Shown here one piece after another: positions 1 to 56,730 of a stretch of 64,000 nt of DNA. The DNA is from Chalara sp. BL73 (lineage: Eukaryota > Ascomycota > Leotiomycetes > Helotiales), in assembly GCA_918026815.1 (NCBI GenBank), contig CAKJVC010000001.1, positions 124,001-188,000 on the forward strand, read 5' to 3'. Position 1 is the stretch's first letter, and each line of letters opens with the position of its first letter. The notes under the pieces were generated by a model that saw only the letters and a program-made list of their open reading frames with translations, was not told the origin of the DNA and searched no databases. The position numbers were made by a program, and so were the translations under genes.

Positions 1-497
1 AGAAAAGGTATTGTAGGTTTCCTTTGCTTCTCTTCTCTTCTCTTTTTGGGATACGTCCTTTCTTTAGCTTCATTAGTAATCTATCAAATGGAAAGTATAA
101 TTAACCAATTGGCACCACTGAAACTCTTTTCATTTAGTCCGGAATAATCGCTGCCTTTGTATTTGACTTTCATTGCTGATCCCCCCAGGCTAATGACCAC
201 ACTCTTTGATAGATGCCTCAACATAGGTACCTGATATTCTCGCACGCGGAGCCATTGAGCGAACTTTCGCTAGATCATGTGATCAACGTGCTATTAACGC
301 CTGAGACGGTTCTCAAAAATTAGAAGTTGTGATCAAGCCATGATTCTGACTGCACCATATCCCAATCTTAGGGTTGGCATGTCTATAAAATCCATTTTGA
401 AGACCAAAATTTCCAATATCCATGCCATTCGTCCTCCCCTTCCTTGTGCATACAAGACCCGGAATGTCCAAGGCATTGTAGGTCATCTCCTCGCTTA
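1..497. other. AT-rich flank left of element A, no gene seen
   Basis: Only short, unconvincing open frames are present and none resembles a known family. The stretch ends at the TA dinucleotide (496-497) that abuts the left inverted repeat of element A. Confidence 0.5.
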
Positions 498-541
498 ACG
501 TCTGTCCCTGCGTGCCGAAACGCACCCTGTAACGAAACAAA
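498..541 (+). repeat. Left terminal inverted repeat of element A
   Basis: It starts ACGTCTGTCCCTGCGTGCCG directly after TA (496-497). Its reverse complement recurs at 4946-4989 with three transition differences. Confidence 0.85.
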
Positions 542-1588
542 ATGTAGGTACTTCAAGTTCAAGCGACTTAAAATCTGTGAACTCGTTAAAATTTTTATTT
601 ATTTCGATTTCAGTGCATTATATGCTTCTCTTAAACACTCCTAACCTACTAGTTCCGAAAAATATTATCGTGTTATCGCTGCCCGTTAGATTTACGGAGA
701 GCCTCCTTTTACCCTATAATCAGACTACTCGACTTGTAACACCACTATTAAAAATTTCTCACTATTTTAACACATTAAACGATTAAATATAAATATCTAG
801 GTCCTGTAATAACACGGAAATGCTATTGCTACTTTGTGGCAGCCAAGGCGTGCCCTGTTATACAACGTCGCTATATGGGTTGATACCTCCTCCAATTAAG
901 CGAGCAAGGACCCTGGTTACCTGAGTCGCGTTTACAATAATCCCTGTAAAAATAATTATATTAATAATGTAATTCCTGTGGCTGCTAATTTGTGAATGCA
1001 AAGCGTGTGGCTGGGTTAGGGGGACCTCGCCGGAAAATTCCGTTTCCCGACATCCTCCGACAGGCAAAATGTGGCAGCCAGACCGCCTACTTCCGGCTTC
1101 TCGCTGCCTGCTAGCTTTGCACTGCTGGCTTTTCATTTCTAGCTTCTTACTTCTGGCTTTTCCTTCAAACTGTTTGTGCTCTGCTTGAAACGACGAACGG
1201 CTTCGATTACTACCCTAGCCTCTAAAGAGAATCCGTTCTCTGCACGATTGCTCCTCAATTCATGGATGACCTCAAAGATAACAGTGTCCGTAATGGCTGC
1301 CAGAGTAACGAAAGGAGCCGAAGCGATGATCTTTCGTCAACTCGGTTACGGCTGGCGCCGTCGATGCCCTATTTACTATGACTTGAGCCACTAACAGGTG
1401 CTTTTGTAAAGTAATGTGCCCATGGCCGTTCCTGCACACACTCGCCCGTACCATATATCGCGTCGCTGCATGATCTGATCAAACAATCCTTTGCCGAATG
1501 TGCCCTGCTGCATGATCAAAATCTAGCCTATGCTGGAAGGGGACCTTCCCGGCCAAATCGTTCTACTAGGCGTGGAAATGCCCTTTCC
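542..1588. other. Element A interior, no gene seen
   Basis: AT-rich sequence between the left repeat and the HET pseudogene. Small open frames on both strands show no family resemblance. Confidence 0.5.
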
Positions 1589-3409
1589 TTAAACTAGTTT
1601 GATTCTCCTAGTCGTAATAGTTGCGTTTTGCAATACTTCTCCGTGCATGATTCCCGTGATATAGCACTCGCCGACCACAGAATAAGCACTATCGTCGGTT
1701 GGCCGAAGAACAAACGGCACTTCGCTTTCGTACAAAACGCAGATCAGATTTCCGCTTTGGGTAGACAATGGTACGCAACCCAAACTCGAGCTTTCTGTGA
1801 CGCAAAACCGGCGCTTAGCTGACTACTTTTCTAGAGAGACCTCAATGAGCGCGTACGCCTCCAGGTTGTGCAGCTTTGTGAAAGACTCGAATTTCCCTTG
1901 GTTGTCTAACTCAAGAGCCACATCGACGACTTTTTGGCTAAGGACTTCTGGAAAGTCAACGATAAAAGAGAGGTATCCCGCCATTAATTTGGAGTAGCCG
2001 GCCGGCGCCGGCAGAGCTTCTCCCGTGAGGCCGCAGGTCATTGCCCGCCAGAAGTCCTTTTACTGACCAGCAGTGAAGCTGCTCGTACCGTCCGTGGCCA
2101 GGTCTCGGGCTTCACAAAGCCATTTGCGCAGTTCCTTGGCTCTAGCTACGCTCTCGAGACTGAAATCCCAGCTAGGAGTTATCCGGGAGAAATTTGTCGG
2201 GGAGCCCAGAACCTGGATTTTGTCCACAATCTTTCCTTGAAGCTGCAGACTCCGCGAGTCGTGGTCGACCCAGGCCACCGGCCGGGTGTTACCAGCAGCC
2301 TTGAAAGAGGTCTGATCGCTGTATTGCATCAACGGATCAACGTTCTCCAAGTCGGTCCAGTCTGGAACCCAGGATGGAAGTTTGGACGGGCCATTCGGTC
2401 CAGATGCGCACGACAGCATCCTCAAGCTACGGTTCTGCTTTGCGTCCCATTGGGCTAGGCTTTGGAACACTTGCTCGACCTCCGCTTCGTAGTCAACCTT
2501 AAAGTCGCTTTCTAGACTCCAGTCTCTTGCCAAACCAAGCAGTGCGAAGATCTTGTCTACTTTTTTGGTGCTTTCGCTTTGCTGGGTGTCCATTAAAAGC
2601 TCGAAGAGGGACTGCAAACCGAAACCCTGCTGTGCTTGCCGCGCTGCTTCGATGCCCCTGATACTCTTTAAGTTTATCTGAATGTCTCTGTGGTTAAGGT
2701 ACCGCGGCGGAATCAGGTCTTGGAGTTCGTTGAGGATAACGTGGGCAAATGCAGCCCACGGCATGCTGATTCCTAGGCTTTGGACCCTGGCTTTTCGAGA
2801 AACGGCGACTTCCTGTACGACCCAGGTCCTGCGAAACTATCCTCTGCGAAGAAGAGATGATATTTTGCTCTCCAATTTCTCCTCCCGGACCATTTTCCGC
2901 AGTGCCGCCTTTATCTTCCCAGCTGGTTGCCTTTCGTCATCCTTCAAGAGTGCGACCAACTGGAAGAAATTGAACACTTCGTAGTCCCTAGGTTCCGGCG
3001 GCAGAAAGATGATAACTTCGTCGGCTTTGGAATATATTTCCTTCATCGCCCCGACTTGTTGTCCTTTCTCTGCAGGATCGTCTTGGTTAATGCATACGGC
3101 GTCGACCCATAATACACGAGGCCGATCTTTGTGTCGAAGTATTCGGAGCGCCCAGGTGAGATTCCAAGAGATCATTAAATAGCCATACGGGTCGCACTGA
3201 AGTTTATAAATCCCAATTCCATGGACCCCACTACCCCATGTATATGATAACGCTTCGTAGGGGCATTCCTCCAAGGAAGCAACGTGCTTTATCTGACATT
3301 TTATGTCATCCCCGGTCTCGCCTGGCTGCAAAACCAGGACGCGGGTCTTGTCATTTTGCGAAAGGGGTTTATATTCATAGCGGCTACTGCGCTTTGAATC
3401 CTCGATCAT
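1589..3409 (-). pseudogene. HET-domain (heterokaryon incompatibility) gene with three in-frame stops
   Basis: One uninterrupted minus-strand frame of 607 codons runs from ATG at 3409 to TAA at 1589, without frameshift or intron, but is cut by stops at 2837-2839 (TAG), 2060-2062 (TAA) and 1823-1825 (TAG). HET motifs are clear: YEALSYTWG and WVDAVCINQDD in the first 190 codons, then FRRTWVVQEV right after the first stop, and a C-terminal end with CYITGIMHGEV. HET proteins trigger cell death after fusion of unlike fungal strains. The first stop sits where the family has Trp before FRR, so TGG became TAG. All three stops can be produced by C-to-T at CpA on one strand, the preferred target of repeat-induced point mutation. 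It is the only gene recognised in element A. Confidence 0.85.
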
Positions 3410-4945
3410 CTATATGCAGTCATTTCCACAGCGATCCTGAACGTCAGCTGCTTCTCTCACCATGTATGTGTTGTATGTTACAAAATTCATAGCCACTACC
3501 GCGAACCAAAGAGCATATGTGTGATTTCCTGTAACATTCAATACTCGCCGTAGTATTGTAGGACAAGGGCTCGTGCGGACATGGCGGCAAAAAACAAAGC
3601 TCGACCTTGATGTCGATGAACGGCCGAAGGCAGCAGTTTGCAGGGTCCCGTAACGGAGCCGTATCCGTGCAGGATTAAGAGGGTGTTTCATCGCTTCTGC
3701 CGTAGCAAGCAGCTTGCTGTCATATCACACCATGTGAATATAGAAGAAGCGTTCGCATAGTCGAAGGATTCCAAGGGGGTCGTTTCCTGCGGATTGTTTG
3801 GAGAAGTGAGCGATTTTCTACTTCGGAAACGTCCAGAAGAACGCCACACTTCCACGTGAGATGTAACGTGGGTGCTAGCCTGCGGCTCACACGAAGCCTT
3901 CGAAATTGATTACTGTAAAGTAGTGGAATTTCTGGACGATGCAAAGGGCTTAAATAAAGCTGGTATAAAATAAAAATACATAATGTAGAAAGCAACCAAA
4001 TTACTATATCGAGACAAAACGGATTAAAAATAAATCCAAGCGGAATAACTAAAAGACCGAAGCTTGCGCCTTTTCTTCTTTTCGAAGGCATCAGCTTATT
4101 TCGAAGGCATTTCGAAGGCAATTATGTCAACAACACTCTTAACACTAACTGAAAATATCCAACAGCTGGTTTACGTATCAGCAAGTGCCTACTTCATTTC
4201 ATTCACGCGAAATACAGTTATGTTTCGAAGTCTAGCTAACTCGATATCTTTAGTAGGGTCTCCGAAGTGCGAACACCGCGACACCCCATAACGAGGCAAA
4301 ATCCAACTCGAGTGATTTTTCTTCTGGCACAGCAGCAACTCTGAAGCGCAAAAAAATTGTGACGCTCTCAATAGCTGGCACTTTATGAAAGTGCAAATGT
4401 GATAACGGACCACACTTTACTATATGCAGCTCGGATAGCGACGGCTGTTACGGACGGTAAGCCGGGAACATGCGCCACACGCGTGACATTCTACGCCACC
4501 AGACTTAAAATAGTGGCTGAGGAAAATATAGCGAGCCCGGATTTATACAGTATAATATAACCAGGCTAATGCATATTAATAAGCACAAAATGAAGCTAAA
4601 AATTATGTGGCGTTTATGCACCTATTTTCTCACATCGGAGAAACTTTCGGGCTGCATCATTTCCCTTTTAAGTGTCTTCAAAAATTCGAGCCATATTCTT
4701 CTAATATAGATCCTTTCTTTAAGTGCTCCGAATTTTAAAGAGACTCTAATAGTCGTAATTAAGCATGGGGGTACAGCCGAAACGGCGATCAGTAGCGTGA
4801 TTAAAACGATCGACTGCACAACTAACTACAGTTGTTTTTCTCTTGCTAAGTAGTCTTTATAGGGAGAAATAATTAAAGAAAGTAATGTTTTAAGTACAAA
4901 TTCATAGACCTGCTAAGAAAAAAGTTGTGATTAGTAAACTAAGGA
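3410..4945. other. Element A interior downstream of the repeat end, no gene seen
   Basis: AT-rich. The 10-mer TTCGAAGGCA occurs three times within 40 bases at 4081-4120. A 133-codon open frame on the minus strand (3720-4121) has no family resemblance and poor composition for a gene. Confidence 0.45.
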
Positions 4946-4989
4946 TTTGTTTCGTTACGGGGTGTGTTTCGGCACGCAGGGATAGACGT
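4946..4989 (-). repeat. Right terminal inverted repeat of element A
   Basis: The reverse complement reads ACGTCTATCCCTGCGTGCCG and is followed outward by TA (4990-4991). It pairs with 498-541. Confidence 0.85.
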
Positions 4990-5075
4990 TAGTTCTTCTG
5001 GTTCGTGATGGACACAAATTTCCTATTTTGTATGGTCATCTTTCATAGCTGATGGGTTTTTTATTCTCCTTGGTA

Positions 5076-5118
5076 ACGTCCGTCCCTGCATAGCGAGAAA
5101 CCCACCGTGCCGAGAAAA
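5076..5118 (+). repeat. Left terminal inverted repeat of element B
   Basis: It begins ACGTCCGTCCCTGCATAGCG after TA and includes CGTGCCGAGAAAA. It is inverted at 8922-8964. Confidence 0.85.
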
Positions 5119-5814
5119 TAGATGGGTACTTCGGCTCTGACTAACTCAAACTCTATCCACATATCGACATTTCTGATACTTCCGTGCATATTGGTTTCTC
5201 TAGTCAATCCCGAATACCATGGCCCTTCCCCTTTGAAAAAATAATGTTTGCATCATCGCCTTCGGACTTGATTTGCGAATGGTTCCGTTTATAGCGCACT
5301 AGAGTTCACAGCTCCACAATCGAGCTCTTATCAGCCCTAGTACTCATTAAATTGTTATATCAGAGCCATAGAGCCTTCTACCATGCTGAGAAATCGTCAT
5401 CAGCCTTGTAGCTGCTGTGAAATTCAGATTCATGCAGGATCTCCACCTAGTTCAGTACTTCTGATTGCATGATCAAGGATCCTGGTGGTGTAAAGCGAGA
5501 TAGTAACTAAAATCTCATTTTTTTTAACTTACGTAATCAATTGCCAAGCCTGCTGGCTGTTTAGGACCGTGGCTGAAGCATTCATCGCAACATCTCAGAA
5601 ACCCCACAAATCGTTCAATTGTTCGTCAATGGATTCTCGTAATCTTACATCTCCGGAACGTGTTATATTCGAAGACCCCCTACTTCACGATGTAGTCGCT
5701 CTGGCCATGCCTGCTCTTGTCTCTGCTGGGGACCTTCTCAGCTTTGCAGCTCTTGAAGTGACAGCTGCTCGTGCGTTCTGCTCTTCGTGTCCTCGGCTAT
5801 ATTTATGATGCTAT
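5119..5814. other. Element B interior, no gene seen
   Basis: Region downstream (3') of the HET gene within element B. A 79-codon plus-strand frame at 5569-5808 is not recognisable and probably not a gene. Confidence 0.45.
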
Positions 5815-7944
5815 TCACCGTATTTCCAGGCTAGTGAGACAGCGTTTGCCCGATTGAAGAAGTTCTTGGACTTCTCCTCTCATCAGTCCGTCGACATAAC
5901 ATGACCCGACGAGAACATAGTGTTCCTCAATTCGTCGTAACAATACCGGCGCCGTATACCCAAAGAGAATGAAAAGAAACTCATCATGCTCCTCTCGCAC
6001 GCCGTCCTTGCCCTCTTTTTCCATGGTGCCGTCCACCGGACATCTTCCCAAGTACCCATCCGCCGTCATAAAGAGCCCATAACTTTTCCACGTAGTCCAA
6101 CCCTCAATTCCCAAGGCCCTCATGGTATCTCTCAGAATAGCTGGATCATCAAGCTCCTGCTCAAAGTCCTCCAACACTTCTCCAGCCCCTTGTATCTCAT
6201 GGGAGAGGAGGAACTCACGGAGAAACACCCCTGGCGGTTGGTTGAAAACGTACTGACTGGCTAGAAAACAATATCCGAGCCGTAGCTCGCGTCGTAAATC
6301 GCCTCTCCAAGCAGCATAACCCATGCATGCTCGAAAAAAAGCCCTAAGGGGAGGAAGGCCGGATTTTGAGAGGTGAGACGAGTTCGAAATGTATACAGAG
6401 TAGTAGTCTGCAAACTTGGACATACTCAAGGGATTTTCCGACGCTTCTGGTAAGTCGTGTTTCTTAAGCTCATACATCCCGCAATCCCAGTCTATGGTTC
6501 GTTCGGAAAGATACCGCACGCGCCCCAAGTCAATGCCAGTGACCCAAAGGCTTTGGCGTTGAATCATGAGTGAACCTGCGGCCCGATGCGTGATGTTGGT
6601 TCCTGCCTGCCACTCGGGGAAGTTGTGAGTTGCAAACTCGTTATACGACAAATTACCTTCGAAAGATGGTAGCCAGCTGGGAGAAGAACTATACCGGTCG
6701 AAAGTTCCAGCGTATGTGAGAAGCGCGAGCTCACAATCACCCAGCTTGCCCTGCCCGCGTGGTGTGGACTTTTGCGTCTCGAGATATTTTGAGAAGTATT
6801 CATGTAAAACATCTTCGTATGGCTTCTCGTAATCGACTGCTATCGGGAGTCGGTTGATGCCAAGTAGACCGTAAATATAGTCTCTTGGATTTGTTGCCTC
6901 GGCGAATCGAGCTGTGCGAGCTGATAGAGCGACTAGCTCGGCTACGCTGACCCCAGATTGCCTTGCCTCCTTGAGCTCAATCGCGCGAGAGACTTGAGCC
7001 CAGGCTTGTCCAGAATAATTGATTTGATTGTGGAAGTTGATGTAATCGTTCTTCCCACGTGTTGGCTGCGGAACAAACCTCCCCTTCCAGAGGGCGACTC
7101 GTGCTATCGCCTCGAATGGTATCGTTGTCTGTGGAGTCGCCACGATCAGTCGCTGCGCCAGAATAATTTCCTGGGAGATCCAGACCCTTTTCCAGTATTC
7201 GCTCTGCCGTAATTCGTGGAGGGCGCGCTCCGGCTCGGTGGCCCATCGAGGCGCGCCGGTGAAGAACCTCCACCGTCGTTTCTCTGGCAGCTTTAGCGTT
7301 TGCGTGCTCGCCGCTGATGCGTCGTTCAGCCTAGAATCAGTGTCGAGGGCGTGAATCAGCTCGCTGAGTTTTAATTTTCGGCCGACGGCATGCTCTATCC
7401 TCTCATCGAGTGCTTGGACCGTATCCATGGCGACCTTCATCACAATCTGCCACCTTCTTTCCCAGCCTGATCCACCTTGGACAGGACGAGGGGGAAGCCA
7501 GCCAATGACGATTTCTGCCCGTCCATAGACTGATTCCATCAATGCCACTTGGCTAGCCGTTTCTTGCAGGTCTGACTGGTTGATGCAAACTGCATCGGCC
7601 CAGAGGCGGAAAGTACAAGGGTCGCGATCTGGAAACGTCTGCCGCCATACTCCCCTGACATGCATGAGCGCTGACGCGAGACTCTTTGTCACGCTAACAT
7701 CTTGTCCGTCCACATTTATCGACTCTAACTCTCCTTTCGAGGCCCATGGGGACCACACGTATGATAAGGCGGTGAAATTGGGGTTGTCATCGAGGGAAAC
7801 TGTGATAAGATGGTACGCGAATGTTTCCTTAGGTCGGCCCCACCACGTGGTTTGGTTCTGCGACTCGATCATGATCAAGCGTATTTGTTTTCGGCTTGCG
7901 TCTAGGGGTCGGTACAGCTCCTGAGTCTGCGTCGAGCGATCCAT
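5815..7944 (-). CDS. HET-domain (heterokaryon incompatibility) protein, intact, 709 aa
   Basis: Intronless frame from ATG at 7944 to the stop at 5815. The HET domain fills roughly residues 40-260: FTALSYVWSPWAS, LWADAVCINQSD, a run ending ESVYGRAEIVIGWLP, and YWKRVWISQEIILAQ. The C-terminal part contains PRDYIYGLLGI and ends with HYVLVGSCYVDGLMRGEV, the usual tail of this family. HET proteins cause programmed cell death when incompatible hyphae fuse; the exact partner cannot be read here. The domain often sits in long proteins like this. It is alone inside element B, in the same orientation as the broken HET gene of element A. No premature stop is present, unlike its neighbour. The family call is secure; allelic identity is unknown. 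Confidence 0.93.
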   Translation of the reverse strand: MDRSTQTQELYRPLDASRKQIRLIMIESQNQTTWWGRPKETFAYHLITVSLDDNPNFTALSYVWSPWASKGELESINVDGQDVSVTKSLASALMHVRGVWRQTFPDRDPCTFRLWADAVCINQSDLQETASQVALMESVYGRAEIVIGWLPPRPVQGGSGWERRWQIVMKVAMDTVQALDERIEHAVGRKLKLSELIHALDTDSRLNDASAASTQTLKLPEKRRWRFFTGAPRWATEPERALHELRQSEYWKRVWISQEIILAQRLIVATPQTTIPFEAIARVALWKGRFVPQPTRGKNDYINFHNQINYSGQAWAQVSRAIELKEARQSGVSVAELVALSARTARFAEATNPRDYIYGLLGINRLPIAVDYEKPYEDVLHEYFSKYLETQKSTPRGQGKLGDCELALLTYAGTFDRYSSSPSWLPSFEGNLSYNEFATHNFPEWQAGTNITHRAAGSLMIQRQSLWVTGIDLGRVRYLSERTIDWDCGMYELKKHDLPEASENPLSMSKFADYYSVYISNSSHLSKSGLPPLRAFFRACMGYAAWRGDLRRELRLGYCFLASQYVFNQPPGVFLREFLLSHEIQGAGEVLEDFEQELDDPAILRDTMRALGIEGWTTWKSYGLFMTADGYLGRCPVDGTMEKEGKDGVREEHDEFLFILFGYTAPVLLRRIEEHYVLVGSCYVDGLMRGEVQELLQSGKRCLTSLEIR

Positions 7945-8921
7945 GCTTTCTAAATCATTAAAAAAAGGGGCAACGCCAAGGCCTTGTGTCGCTGCGCTGC
8001 TTCTAGAAGTTTGAGAATAAATTCAGTCGCGTTCAGGGTGTAGGGGGAATCGCAACATGGCTATACATTGCCGTAGGCGCCCCAAGGCCAGCCAACCAGT
8101 AGGCAGTCAATGCAGGAGCCAATGGTTGGCTGTCTAAGCCACTCAACCCTCATACGCGGTTGAGCCATAACTTCTTGTAGCTGAAATGTACAGCATCGTG
8201 ATAAGTAGTGCAACCCGCCCCTTCCCGCAGTTTCTCTACAGGATAGTGCGTATTGTACAGCAAAGTGTGCTGTACAGTAGAGCGTACTGTTTAGTATAGC
8301 ATAATGTACAGTGTAGTAAAGCACAAAGACGATGACACAATTCAAGAAGTCAGAATAAGCACTTTCGTGCTAAATATCTTGGAGAAGCAAAAGTGGATGA
8401 CACAAGTATGGAGTCCGAATTTGCCCTGGTAGATCAGCTGGCAGCATTCTGCTACACGTGAGATCTCGTTAGCCACAGCCCGGAATAGCCACAAGCTTGG
8501 CAAATGATTACATAAGAGATATTCTGCCAGATTTCTGCACTAACTAAAATTAGTTAGTCGCTTTAATGAGAGGTAGCAACCCAGGTGGCGACATTGCACA
8601 AATTTGGATATCACAGCAACAACATGGCTGGCAATGACTTCTTAGTAGTCCTAGAGGGCTTATAGGCTCGGATAAAGATGATTTTTAAATTGCAATAACG
8701 GTAAAAGGTTAATCGTAATACTGTAGTGGAAGAGTCCTATTATGCCATAAAATGAGACCCTCTGCAAACCAGGCGCGACGATAATAATGCGAAAATAAAT
8801 TTCCAAGAAGCCTAATTAAGACATTTTTAGGAGTGATCAAAGCATAAAATGATTACAAAACTTTGGGAATTTTTGGTGTTTTTATTGAGTTTGAATTGCT
8901 TGAAGTCAAGGTACCCAATAT
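7945..8921. other. Element B interior upstream of the HET gene (promoter side)
   Basis: About 1 kb that must hold the HET promoter and 5' leader. It contains a TGTACAG-rich stretch (8238-8325). No second gene is recognised. Confidence 0.5.
8238..8325. repeat. Degenerate TGTACAG/GTACTGT-rich stretch
   Basis: TGTACAG or close variants recur five or six times in about 90 bases (for example TTGTACAGC, CTGTACAGT, GTACTGTTTAG, ATGTACAGTG). It lies 300-380 bp upstream of the HET start inside element B. It may be simple low-complexity DNA or spaced binding sites. Confidence 0.45.
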
Positions 8922-8964
8922 TTTTCTCGGCACGAGGGGTTTCTCGCTACACAGGGACGGACGA
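8922..8964 (-). repeat. Right terminal inverted repeat of element B
   Basis: The reverse complement reads TCGTCCGTCCCTGTGTAGCG and continues to CGTGCCGAGAAAA. TA follows at 8965-8966. Confidence 0.85.
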
Positions 8965-9243
8965 TAGTTTTGAATACCAAGCACGAAAGAGACATGAAGA
9001 GAAGCTTTATCTCTAGCGCTATCGCAGGTCTTGGCAGTGCCATCTCCGTCGTCATAACCAACTATGGATCCTGTAGGTGTACAATGTACGTCGAACTACA
9101 AAATAGAATCTTATCTAAATTGGTCGGAGAAATTATACTTAAAACGCCAAACAACTCTATACATCTGTCACCAGTTTTGGCAAGAGATTTGTTCGAACTA
9201 GATCCGAACTTGAACAGCGCCAATTGAAGGGCTTTGAAATTCT

Positions 9244-54478: not shown

Positions 54479-56730
54479 TCAAACAAGTGTGACTATTGCG
54501 TCAGGTTCGCCGAACCAGTCATCTACAAGTTCGTCCTGGCCGGCTTCCAGGGCTGTCTTCATCCAGTTAAAAGGGTGATCAACGAGATAAGCTGCTTGGG
54601 CGATCGGATTGCGATTGCTCGCCCACTCCTCGCGAAGCATCGTATTTCTTGGAAGGCGCTGCTCCCGGTACTCAAAATAGCCGATGCGCTCGAATTGGTT
54701 CACAGCTTCGCCAGTAGGTTGCAACAATATGCCTCGTCCCAAGTGAAGCTGAAGACACCATGTGTCGAAGACATTCTCCCAGGACACCATCTCGTCAGAC
54801 TGCAATCTTGTCAAGCTCAACTCTGCGTTTGGAGTGTCCATAAGACATATCCCTATTCGGTGCCTCGTGTCTTGAGAATCGGACTGTGCCCTTGGAGCCT
54901 GAAAGCCAATAATGTGGTAACGTTCTTGTTTTCCATATAGAAAAATCTTCCGCAAATATCCCTTAACTAGAATCTTGCCCGAGCAACGAAATCCATAGAG
55001 ATTTGGGAAGTCTGTCACATTCGTGCTGACGATCGTTGCGCACATCGGAGTACAAACATGGCGGTGGATACGCTCATAGGAAACCTCGAACCTCCTCGCT
55101 GCCCAAGACCAAGAAGGTGCCACATCGATTCTCACACTAGGTGATTTGACACACCACAGAAGGTCGTAGACCAAATTCTCTTCCCAGAGGCCGGCGAGGT
55201 ATTTACCAGGGTTGTCGGCTCTCTTCGCAAATTGCTTTGCTACTCCTGACAAGGCTATGAGGCTGTCTGTTGGTTCAGTCAAATACCTGCTTGAGTATTC
55301 CTCAACTAGCGCATGCCAGGAATCAAACTGAGGATGAGGGTTAAGACGGTTACAAAGCTGGAACTGGAAAGGCTCCCCTTCATGGTATTCGTATTGTCTC
55401 CCATGATCGCACTCAAAGAAGATCTTATCTTTCCCAAGGTGAACAAATCGCGTAGCCAAGATCCTCTCCTGGAACGTCCAACCACGTGTGTACAATGGAC
55501 CCAGGGTGTCTTCGGATCTACGTTCTTGAGAAGCAATGAAACAACGACGGAGACCGTCATCAAGATCTGTTGGCATCGCCTCTTGAATATTACGAATTTC
55601 CGCAATTGCACGGTAATGGTATGGCCAGCAATGAATCCCTTCGTAAGCATTTGATGAGGCAGCCATGCCAAGGACCACAACGGCCTGACTGTATATCGTA
55701 TCCATTTGAACAGACTGTTGACTCCAGTCATCCTTGGCCTCCGTCGACTTACCTTGGAAGATACACAAAGCATCAACCCATAGATAACGAACGCCGAGCC
55801 CCCGCGTAATCTCTATTGCATCTTGCAAAGTGGGGGGCAATTTCTCCATTGGTATCCGCTTTTGCAGTTCCTCCAAAGTCTCTGGTGTTAGGGTCAAGAA
55901 TGGAACGCTACCCCAACAATAGCTAAGAGCAGCATAAACACCGCTAGAAGGCTGTCCTTCATCTGCGGCTAACGCCCCTCCGTTCCATGGGTTAATCCAG
56001 AGGTATGGTTGGTTTACTTCACCACCGCCCGGACCGCCCACGTCAATCAGTCTAAGTGGGAGCAGTTGGTTAAACGCAGTGGGGCAACTTGGGTGACCAT
56101 GTAAACATTTTCTGATATTGTCGCCAATAAACTCGATAGTGTTTGCCTTGCCACGAAACATTGCGTTATTACCTTAGACATGTTAGTGTGTCAGTAGCAA
56201 GTAAAATTACTTAAGAAGCCATTACTTTCTGTGAGTACTGCTAGCCGCCGCGGAGCATGAAAAAACCTCGATTCGCCATTGTGATTAATACGGCCGTGAT
56301 ATCCGGCAGTGACTGTTAATTGGTCTTCAGTACGGAGCTTGAGGCTGATTGCATTGTCATGCTGAAGAAGAATGTTCATATTCTCTTGGGAGTTGGCTGT
56401 AAAAGATTCCAGTATCATACAGCAGAGTTGACATCCATCAGAAGCTGATTTGACTAGACTAGCACCATCGGGCTGATGGGTACCTTCACTGAGCGAGAAT
56501 TGCTGGCAAACGTTACAAAGATTATCCCCACTGAGTAGGTATTCACTTGTTGCGTGAACTTCTTCTAACGGTGTCCAGGATCTACTAAGCTCAGGATCTG
56601 CCCATGGCCATTCCAGTTCTGACAGGAAAATCCGGCATCTGATATCGATAGCTGCTTCACCCCAGGTCATGGACCCTTTCCTTCTGATCTCTGACTTCGC
56701 TCTTGCTACTCGAGATAGTTTGAAGCTCAT
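54479..56730 (-). CDS. HET-domain protein with N-terminal Cys-rich region, 732 aa
   Basis: Two exons: 56730-56226 and 56172-54479, over a 53-nt intron (GTAATG donor, CACTAAC branch, CTAAG acceptor); 733 codons. ATG 56730 is chosen as the first Met; a non-ATG extension exists upstream. The N-terminus has LCNVCQQF and, 30 residues later, DGCQLCCMI, the Cys pairs typical of one HET class. The HET domain at about residues 245-400 shows YAALSYCWGS, LWVDALCIFQG, QMDTIYSQAVVVLGMAAS and LYTRGWTFQERILATR. The C-terminal 300 residues are the usual variable region. Role: incompatibility-triggered cell death, by family. Unlike the two HET genes at 1-9 kb, no TIR-bounded unit was found around it. Confidence 0.92.

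Follow-up and report, generated by a model that had tools for sequence, protein, structure and literature searches.

Background

Pack-MULEs and similar gene-capturing elements of plants hold host genes, mostly as gene fragments, between terminal inverted repeats (TIRs) without a transposase. The multiplication and movement of HET and NLR genes are, to our knowledge, poorly explained outside the giant Starships. Here we analyse a stretch of 64,000 nucleotides (the window) from the fungus Chalara sp. BL73 (assembly GCA_918026815.1, contig CAKJVC010000001.1, positions 124,001 to 188,000), in which an element at 5076-8964 encloses a HET gene between TIRs flanked by TA. The closest known kind of element, by its description, is ToxTA (formerly ToxhAT) of Bipolaris, Pyrenophora and Parastagonospora, which is described as non-autonomous, with a TA duplication and a 74-bp TIR, and proposed to be of the Tc1/mariner type (PMC6737239, PMC12506042). 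Its cargo includes a Patatin-TPR gene, put in the NLR family by its authors (PMC6737239), and a preliminary description of the window, which knew of no small TIR elements with HET cargo, needs qualifying to that extent. As described, ToxTA is one 14.3-kb element with eight genes, whereas the units reported here, all within one genome, are pairs of ends about 2-9 kb apart that hold many different HET and NLR genes and to which a transposase clade is linked.

The ends themselves resemble those of the Mariner-SS families of Sclerotinia sclerotiorum, for which ACGT tips, TIRs of 36-70 bp, TA duplication and an HTH_Tnp_Tc5/DDE transposase are reported (PMC4188875). According to the same source these elements measure about 1.4-2.3 kb and encode their transposase; the units described here, in contrast, are mostly longer and carry HET or NLR genes. 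Since the ACGT tip is given there for all families save TcMar-Pogo, we leave the subfamily name of our elements open. Starships are likewise reported as mobile, with HET and NLR genes among their cargo (PMC9594970, PMC12134995, PMC12506042); they differ in being giant and in having a tyrosine recombinase captain, whereas the present units are small, with TIRs, TA flanks and a DDE transposase. The HET-NACHT-WD40 order of some of the cargo is reminiscent of the HNWD (het-D/het-E) NLR genes of Podospora, around which the accessible part of the source describes no TIR element (PMC1805685). Meanwhile, a study of miniature inverted-repeat transposable elements (MITEs) in Fusarium places HET genes on the same chromosome as the MITEs and not within them, as far as its accessible text goes (PMC3599309). 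In the open-access texts reached by our literature search, we found no account of a family of HET-carrying TIR units. The apparent novelty is a family with many members in a single genome, with HET and NLR genes as its commonest cargo and with movement shown by an empty site and by duplicates. Small units with such simple ends provide a testable route for the spread and variation of self-recognition genes; they can be predicted from their ends, and self-recognition differences could be matched against them.

The HET element of the window

We consider it roughly 80% probable that the unit at 5076-8964 belongs, as a non-autonomous member, to the ACGT-tipped Tc1/mariner elements, with a Tan1-like transposase serving it and a HET gene with its own flanks as cargo, within a family of varied cargo in which HET and NLR genes are the commonest. 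The preliminary description of a TA-flanked 43-bp inverted repeat around one complete HET gene of 709 residues, with no transposase inside, holds in the sequence (Table 1). The TIRs, 5076-5118 and 8922-8964, agree at 38 of 43 positions, and extended to 55 bp they agree at 45. Their tips are of the ACGT type (ACGT on the left, TCGT on the right), and a TA stands on either side. This TIR pair is absent from the automated repeat-finder list of the window and is visible directly in the letters. Apart from the HET frame, there are two frames of at least 110 residues, and both overlap it.

The HET frame measures 735 residues from stop to stop and 709 from its first ATG, with 0 internal stops. It matches the Pfam HET domain (7e-21; 75.5 bits against a curated cut-off of 22.5), and the gene looks functional, judged by its sequence. 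Two relatives align with the protein over its full length at 39-40% identity, followed by more distant HET proteins, among which many of the named ones come from the Fusarium solani group (25-29% identity).

A family of ends in the genome

We searched the genome to which the window belongs (58.7 Mb, 199 contigs; below, C numbers denote contigs and L numbers the pieces fetched from them). The left 125 bp of the window element found 39 matches there, a count that includes the query and the right end of the same element. Two related types can be told apart among the fetched ends: type B, found in the window element, reads approximately TAACGTCCnTCCCTGCGTnnCGAGAAACCC..CGTGCCGAGAAAA (18 ends), and type A, found in the sister element next to it, reads TAACGTCtGTCCCTGCGTgCCGAgACGCACCCTGTaACGAgACAAA (12 ends). 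Both types display two tandem CGARA-like motifs per end, which would suit two predicted transposase binding sites. With up to 3 mismatches, the patterns matched 64 times (type A) and 116 times (type B), and reversed-pattern controls gave 0 and 0. A looser 15-bp pattern with 2 mismatches was noisier, with 143 + 150 matches against 92 + 93 for the reversed control. From the listed matches (64 of 64 for type A, 100 of 116 for type B) we count at least 157 distinct ends, on which all pair, neighbour and inward/outward counts below rest. These ends are multicopy, beyond what chance gives. The type-B pattern had no match on viral contigs.

Neighbouring ends less than 12 kb apart form 63 pairs among the ends listed, of which 32 are convergent and 12, 13 and 6 show the other arrangements; 28 of the convergent pairs exceed 1.5 kb. 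Across the family, about 320-450 bp at the ends are common to the members, which differ in their cargo. Units also lie side by side, at C59:9955-19599, C165:145033-156992, C100:57118-69505 and 496-8966 of the window, with a gap of 82 bp in the window and gaps of 106, 304 and 1286 bp in the others (four such cases, against a mean of 0.10 under uniform random placement). Within the window, pattern matches with 0-1 mismatch number four (496+, 4977-, 5074+, 8952-) and correspond to two elements. The same ends also bound miniature elements (239-251 bp) at C121:68938-69188, C121:69499-69749 and C100:40153-40391.

A transposase clade linked to the ends

The same ends are found on relatives that hold transposases with DDE_1 or HTH_Tnp_Tc5 domains (C5, C52 and C66), whose frames, as read, are broken or incomplete. 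The unit on C5 (L050 303-8330; C5:1922-9953) is nested in a type-B end and carries a transposase frame in addition to a HET gene. This DDE_1 frame is open over 460 residues and is 79-80% identical to proteins of Rutstroemia (where it is named transposase tan1) and Botrytis, and up to 86% identical to unnamed proteins. On C52, an HTH_Tnp_Tc5 domain lies ahead of the transposase. Judging by these Pfam domains and by the identity to the protein named tan1, the transposase would be pogo-type and Tan1-like.

In a gene set for which 92 of 230 candidates were scored, a family end pointing at the gene lies within 8 kb of 11 of the 23 genes that are at least 49% identical to the C5 transposase, compared to 2 of 63 other pogo-type genes (Fisher 3e-6). 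The association persists when two segmental copies are dropped (9 of 21; Fisher 3e-5). The best candidate for an autonomous unit is at C65:101529, where an end with 3 mismatches is followed, about 0.4 kb inside, by an open DDE frame of 487 residues.

Movement of sister units

Joined flanks of 15 queries, covering 16 junctions, were searched against the window's own genome; 40 of 80 candidates were scored, so that the lack of an empty site is weak evidence. A HET element at C59:143731-147380, with an open frame of 710 residues, has an empty counterpart at C82:1231765-1231994, with 91% identity across the join. TA is present once at the empty site and twice at the filled one, which is the pattern that the preliminary description had recommended looking for, here found within the same genome. 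The join of the C5 element is spanned by four relatives at 86-90% identity, two of which are mutual copies at C92, and by others at lower identity. Among the candidates scored, 13 of the 15 queries, the window's included, gave no spanning match. Copies sharing the left flank of the C5 unit are found close to the ends of contigs, at C1:3661, C3:1874870 and C4:4064.

Duplicate units provided a second line of evidence. Two copies of a HET-NACHT-WD40 unit, one at C100:57118 and one at C165:145033, are 97.9% identical across 6.2 kb; from the TA outward their flanks are unlike. Their frames are open and differ by 52 synonymous and 66 non-synonymous changes; the ratio of non-synonymous to synonymous rates (pN/pS) is 0.45 for WD40, 0.26 for NACHT and 0.29 for HET, the last from four changes. 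Such duplicates can be used for measuring how HET and NLR genes diverge after a jump. A pair of NLR remnants on C83 and at C165:203699 is 92.6% identical where aligned, with a length difference of 1.9 kb and unlike flanks. The pairs L049/L050 and L051/L052 were not counted as jumps, because their flanks are shared and they are hence segmental duplicates.

Collectively, the multicopy ends, the linked transposase clade, the empty site with a single TA and the duplicates at unlike sites support, for sister units, the idea that a transposon end-pair moves a self-recognition gene; by extension from them, the window element itself would also have been moved by a Tan1-like transposase. We postulate that the transposase, produced elsewhere, would bind the ends of the element, and that the bound unit would be excised and reinserted at a TA, which would be duplicated. 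The HET gene would be carried along with its own flanks.

Cargo between the ends

We read 19 of the 28 convergent pairs longer than 1.5 kb; two of the nine left have a NACHT-type match. The 19 comprise the two of the window, 14 chosen from the looser-pattern list when their content was unknown, one from the same stretches (C59:15457) and two from the 125-bp search (C52 and C165:203699). L066 (C92, ends in a single direction), L067 (C129, no partner end) and L068 (C175) were excluded, the last because its left end has no clean TA and its right end is degenerate; L068 has frames with HET and HET-NB-ARC-TPR.

A HET domain is present in 11 of the 19 pairs: both on C1 (the window), C4, C5, C59:9955, C67, C59:143731, C60, C63, C100:57118 and C165:145033. 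The C4 and C5 pairs are segmental copies of each other, as are those at C59:9955, which holds two HET genes, and on C67. The HET calls for L052 and L060 stem from the genome HET list and from 97.9% identity to L057, respectively, and those for the other pairs from Pfam scans of their own. The units on C60, C63, C100 and C165 display HET, NACHT and WD40 pieces in that order. Parts of NLR genes occur in three more pairs, namely on C83 (WD40 and a NACHT-type match with stops), at C100:64594 (TPR, and NB-ARC slightly below its cut-off) and at C165:203699, a longer copy of the C83 unit with a winged-helix match below cut-off. Other copies with different cargo, whose existence the preliminary description left to be checked, were also found: a GNAT (acetyltransferase) gene on C133 (L059 1347-1955), a broken transposase on each of C52 and C66, the former together with an alcohol-dehydrogenase-like (ADH) frame and a weak match to APH, and ankyrin repeats at C59:15457. 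In the C14 pair, a Pfam scan of three frames recognised no domain.

In comparisons between different units, over stretches exceeding 80 residues, HET proteins agree at about 21-42% and the NLR-type proteins at 62-68%, suggesting that cargo was probably acquired on several occasions. A number of the cargo genes have long open frames, unlike the gene fragments typical of Pack-MULEs. Like ToxTA, these are TA-duplicating, non-autonomous TIR units with host-type cargo that includes NLR genes. The genome has a very large HET repertoire, with 766 first-look candidates (all of the 150 scored are above the cut-off), and 308 candidates for the NACHT-type model NPHP3_N.

Alternative explanations

Several observations weigh against a Tan1-like transposase having mobilised the window element and against its family favouring HET and NLR genes. 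The window element has no second copy in its own genome and no empty site there among the 40 of 80 candidates scored. Both of the unfilled relatives aligned for the C5 site (two of four) read TG, while the filled site reads TA. The TA flanks of the pairs are partly a product of construction, because TA formed part of the search patterns for the ends, a bias of which the empty site is free. The apparent N-terminal part of the C5 transposase lies in other frames, with stops, and of the autonomous relative that had been anticipated we found the linked transposase clade and no complete autonomous element among the units read. Five of the 19 pairs are without a recognised HET or NLR gene (C133, C52, C66, C59:15457 and C14), and several units have broken cargo genes (the sister on C1, C4, C83 and C165:203699). 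Finally, simulations that assume a uniform density of genes ignore clustering in NLR-rich regions, a NACHT-type gene lies within 50 kb of 78 of the 157 listed ends, and the inward excess of NACHT-type genes, when counted by gene at 6 kb, is 15 inward-only against 6 outward-only (p 0.08).

The last points speak for an alternative in which the units are mobile and their HET and NLR cargo is a mere by-product of HET/NLR-rich surroundings, any neighbouring DNA being caught alike. The figure of 78 of 157 means that the elements sit in NLR-rich regions; P450 genes lie within 50 kb of 8 of these ends. The units cluster, and other cargo such as GNAT and ADH is present. Under a uniform density of the 766 HET candidates, 1.35 of 19 pairs would be expected to contain HET, compared to the 11 observed, and 0 of 1e6 simulations reached 11. 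With copies dropped, 8 of 15 pairs contain HET against 1.03 expected (2 of 1e6 simulations), and with the window's own two also dropped, 6 of 13 against 0.92 (139 of 1e6).

Other comparisons point the other way. For NACHT-type genes we used the NPHP3_N list (150 of 308 candidates), a broad NTPase model with matches in 9 of 14 control genomes, 5 of them over the cut-off. Such matches occur in 7 of the 28 pairs, two of which represent a single duplicated unit; when the pairs are shifted by 10-100 kb the mean is 0.49, and 0 of 5000 shifts reached 7. Ends with a NACHT-type gene inward outnumber those with one outward by 26 to 9 within 6 kb and by 14 to 2 within 3 kb; counted by gene at 3 kb, inward-only and outward-only are 12 and 1 (p 0.003). 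On the partial HET list (150 of 766 candidates, the window's own HET genes not among them), a HET gene lies inward of 9 ends and outward of 2, and 3 of 28 pairs contain one, two of these being mutual segmental copies; shifted pairs average 0.195, with 3 reached in 4 of 5000 shifts. The changes in the sole copy pair measured, that of C100 and C165, also look constrained. P450 genes (92, from 104 listed rows minus 12 second pieces) gave 0 inward and 0 outward, a control not matched to compartment given their scarcity around the ends; MFS_1 was rejected as a background control, being useless with 9 of 737 candidates scored. The HET/NLR bias of the cargo is partly a matter of neighbourhood, and the inward bias of these genes is likely real. 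A pure by-product is possible, with the balance tilting against it; the bias may instead stem from selection on HET/NLR diversity, added to insertion in NLR-rich regions.

Another possibility complements the proposed transposition by a Tan1-like transposase and concerns how the cargo came to lie between the ends. Some units would form when the ends of two neighbouring elements, both of the right type, pair and trap the gene between them. Right-type subterminal sequence scores on both sides of the window element, C100:64594, C60:528510, C83 and C165:203699, the last two being copies, which suggests such trapping. On C60, a right-type and a left-type end stand 462 bp apart on one side, and the close spacing of units would favour this kind of pairing. 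Conversely, at least six other units have one left and one right end (C59:9955, C14, C59:143731, C63, C100:57118 and the window's sister), and the scoring used two short ad hoc consensus strings, with ambiguous outcomes for C5, C66 and one end of C133. We put this origin forward tentatively, as something short of an even prospect.

A bolder version of our proposal would be a transposon lineage specialised in allorecognition genes, whose HET or NLR cargo helps the units to persist, for instance by penalising fusion with nuclei that have a different version or none. We regard this as unlikely; if true, specialised units would create and maintain a self-recognition repertoire that is mobile and changes fast.

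Still less probable, in our judgement, is that a resident HET gene is flanked by chance, either by two ends that are unrelated or by solo miniature elements, and that the interval was never mobile as a unit. Miniature elements with these ends exist on C100 and C121, such ends cluster, and the window element is the single-copy case without an empty site noted above. However, both of its ends belong to type B, each side carries one end with shared subterminal sequence instead of a short two-ended unit, and sister units with genes moved whole; for the last two reasons we rejected two MITEs as the main reading. That the HET gene lies inside a giant Starship, with incidental inverted repeats, is very improbable: Starships reportedly carry HET and NLR genes (PMC9594970, PMC12506042), but the sister units, 3.6 and 6.2 kb long, end exactly at TIR and TA and stand alone at unlike sites, although no search was aimed at a DUF3435 captain gene and a Starship around the region is conceivable.

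Other features of the window

The sister element (498-4989), with TIRs, TA flanks and HET cargo of its own, was absent from the preliminary description of 5076-8964; it is listed with the other features in Table 1. Near the end of the window, a neutral gene shows 73-74% identity to proteins of the helotialean genera Rhexocercosporidium, Calycina and Oculimacula; taken with the transposase, this suggests a host within the Leotiomycetes, whose own proteins were not among the matches.

Table 1. Features of the two adjoining elements of the window and of one further unit (window positions unless a piece is named)
Feature	Positions	Strand	Basis or remark
Sister element, end type A, including flanking TA copies	496-4991		TIRs 498-540 / 4947-4989, 40/43
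HET gene of sister element, one in-frame stop at 2837-2839	2060-3409	-	HET 5.5e-23 on 2837-3409
Spacer of 82 bp between sister and window element	4992-5073
TA, left copy of target-site duplication	5074-5075		Read from letters
Left TIR, type B, two tandem CGAGAAA-like motifs	5076-5130	+	45/55 against right end; type-B pattern; end alignment
Left subterminal region common to other elements	5143-5465	+	70% to end in L067
Intact HET gene, 709 residues + stop, single open frame (read from 7944 to 5815)	5815-7944	-	Frame; Pfam match; two full-length relatives at 39-40% identity
HET domain PF06985	7168-7776	-	Pfam; residues 83-285 of 735-residue frame
Right subterminal region common to other elements	8570-8909	-	8570-8972 is 71% to end of NLR element L058
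Right TIR, type B	8910-8964	-	Type-B pattern; TIR comparison; end alignment
TA, right copy of target-site duplication	8965-8966		Read from letters
ADH-like frame and weak APH match (C52 unit)	L064 4002-4634, 6551-7777

Beyond the four ends of these two elements, five end-like matches in the window have 3 mismatches, and the total of nine is not above the 6.9 expected by chance. One end-like match with 3 mismatches, which is at chance level, lies near the third HET gene of the window, at 54479-56173, which has a frame of 564 residues and a HET match of 1.5e-28.

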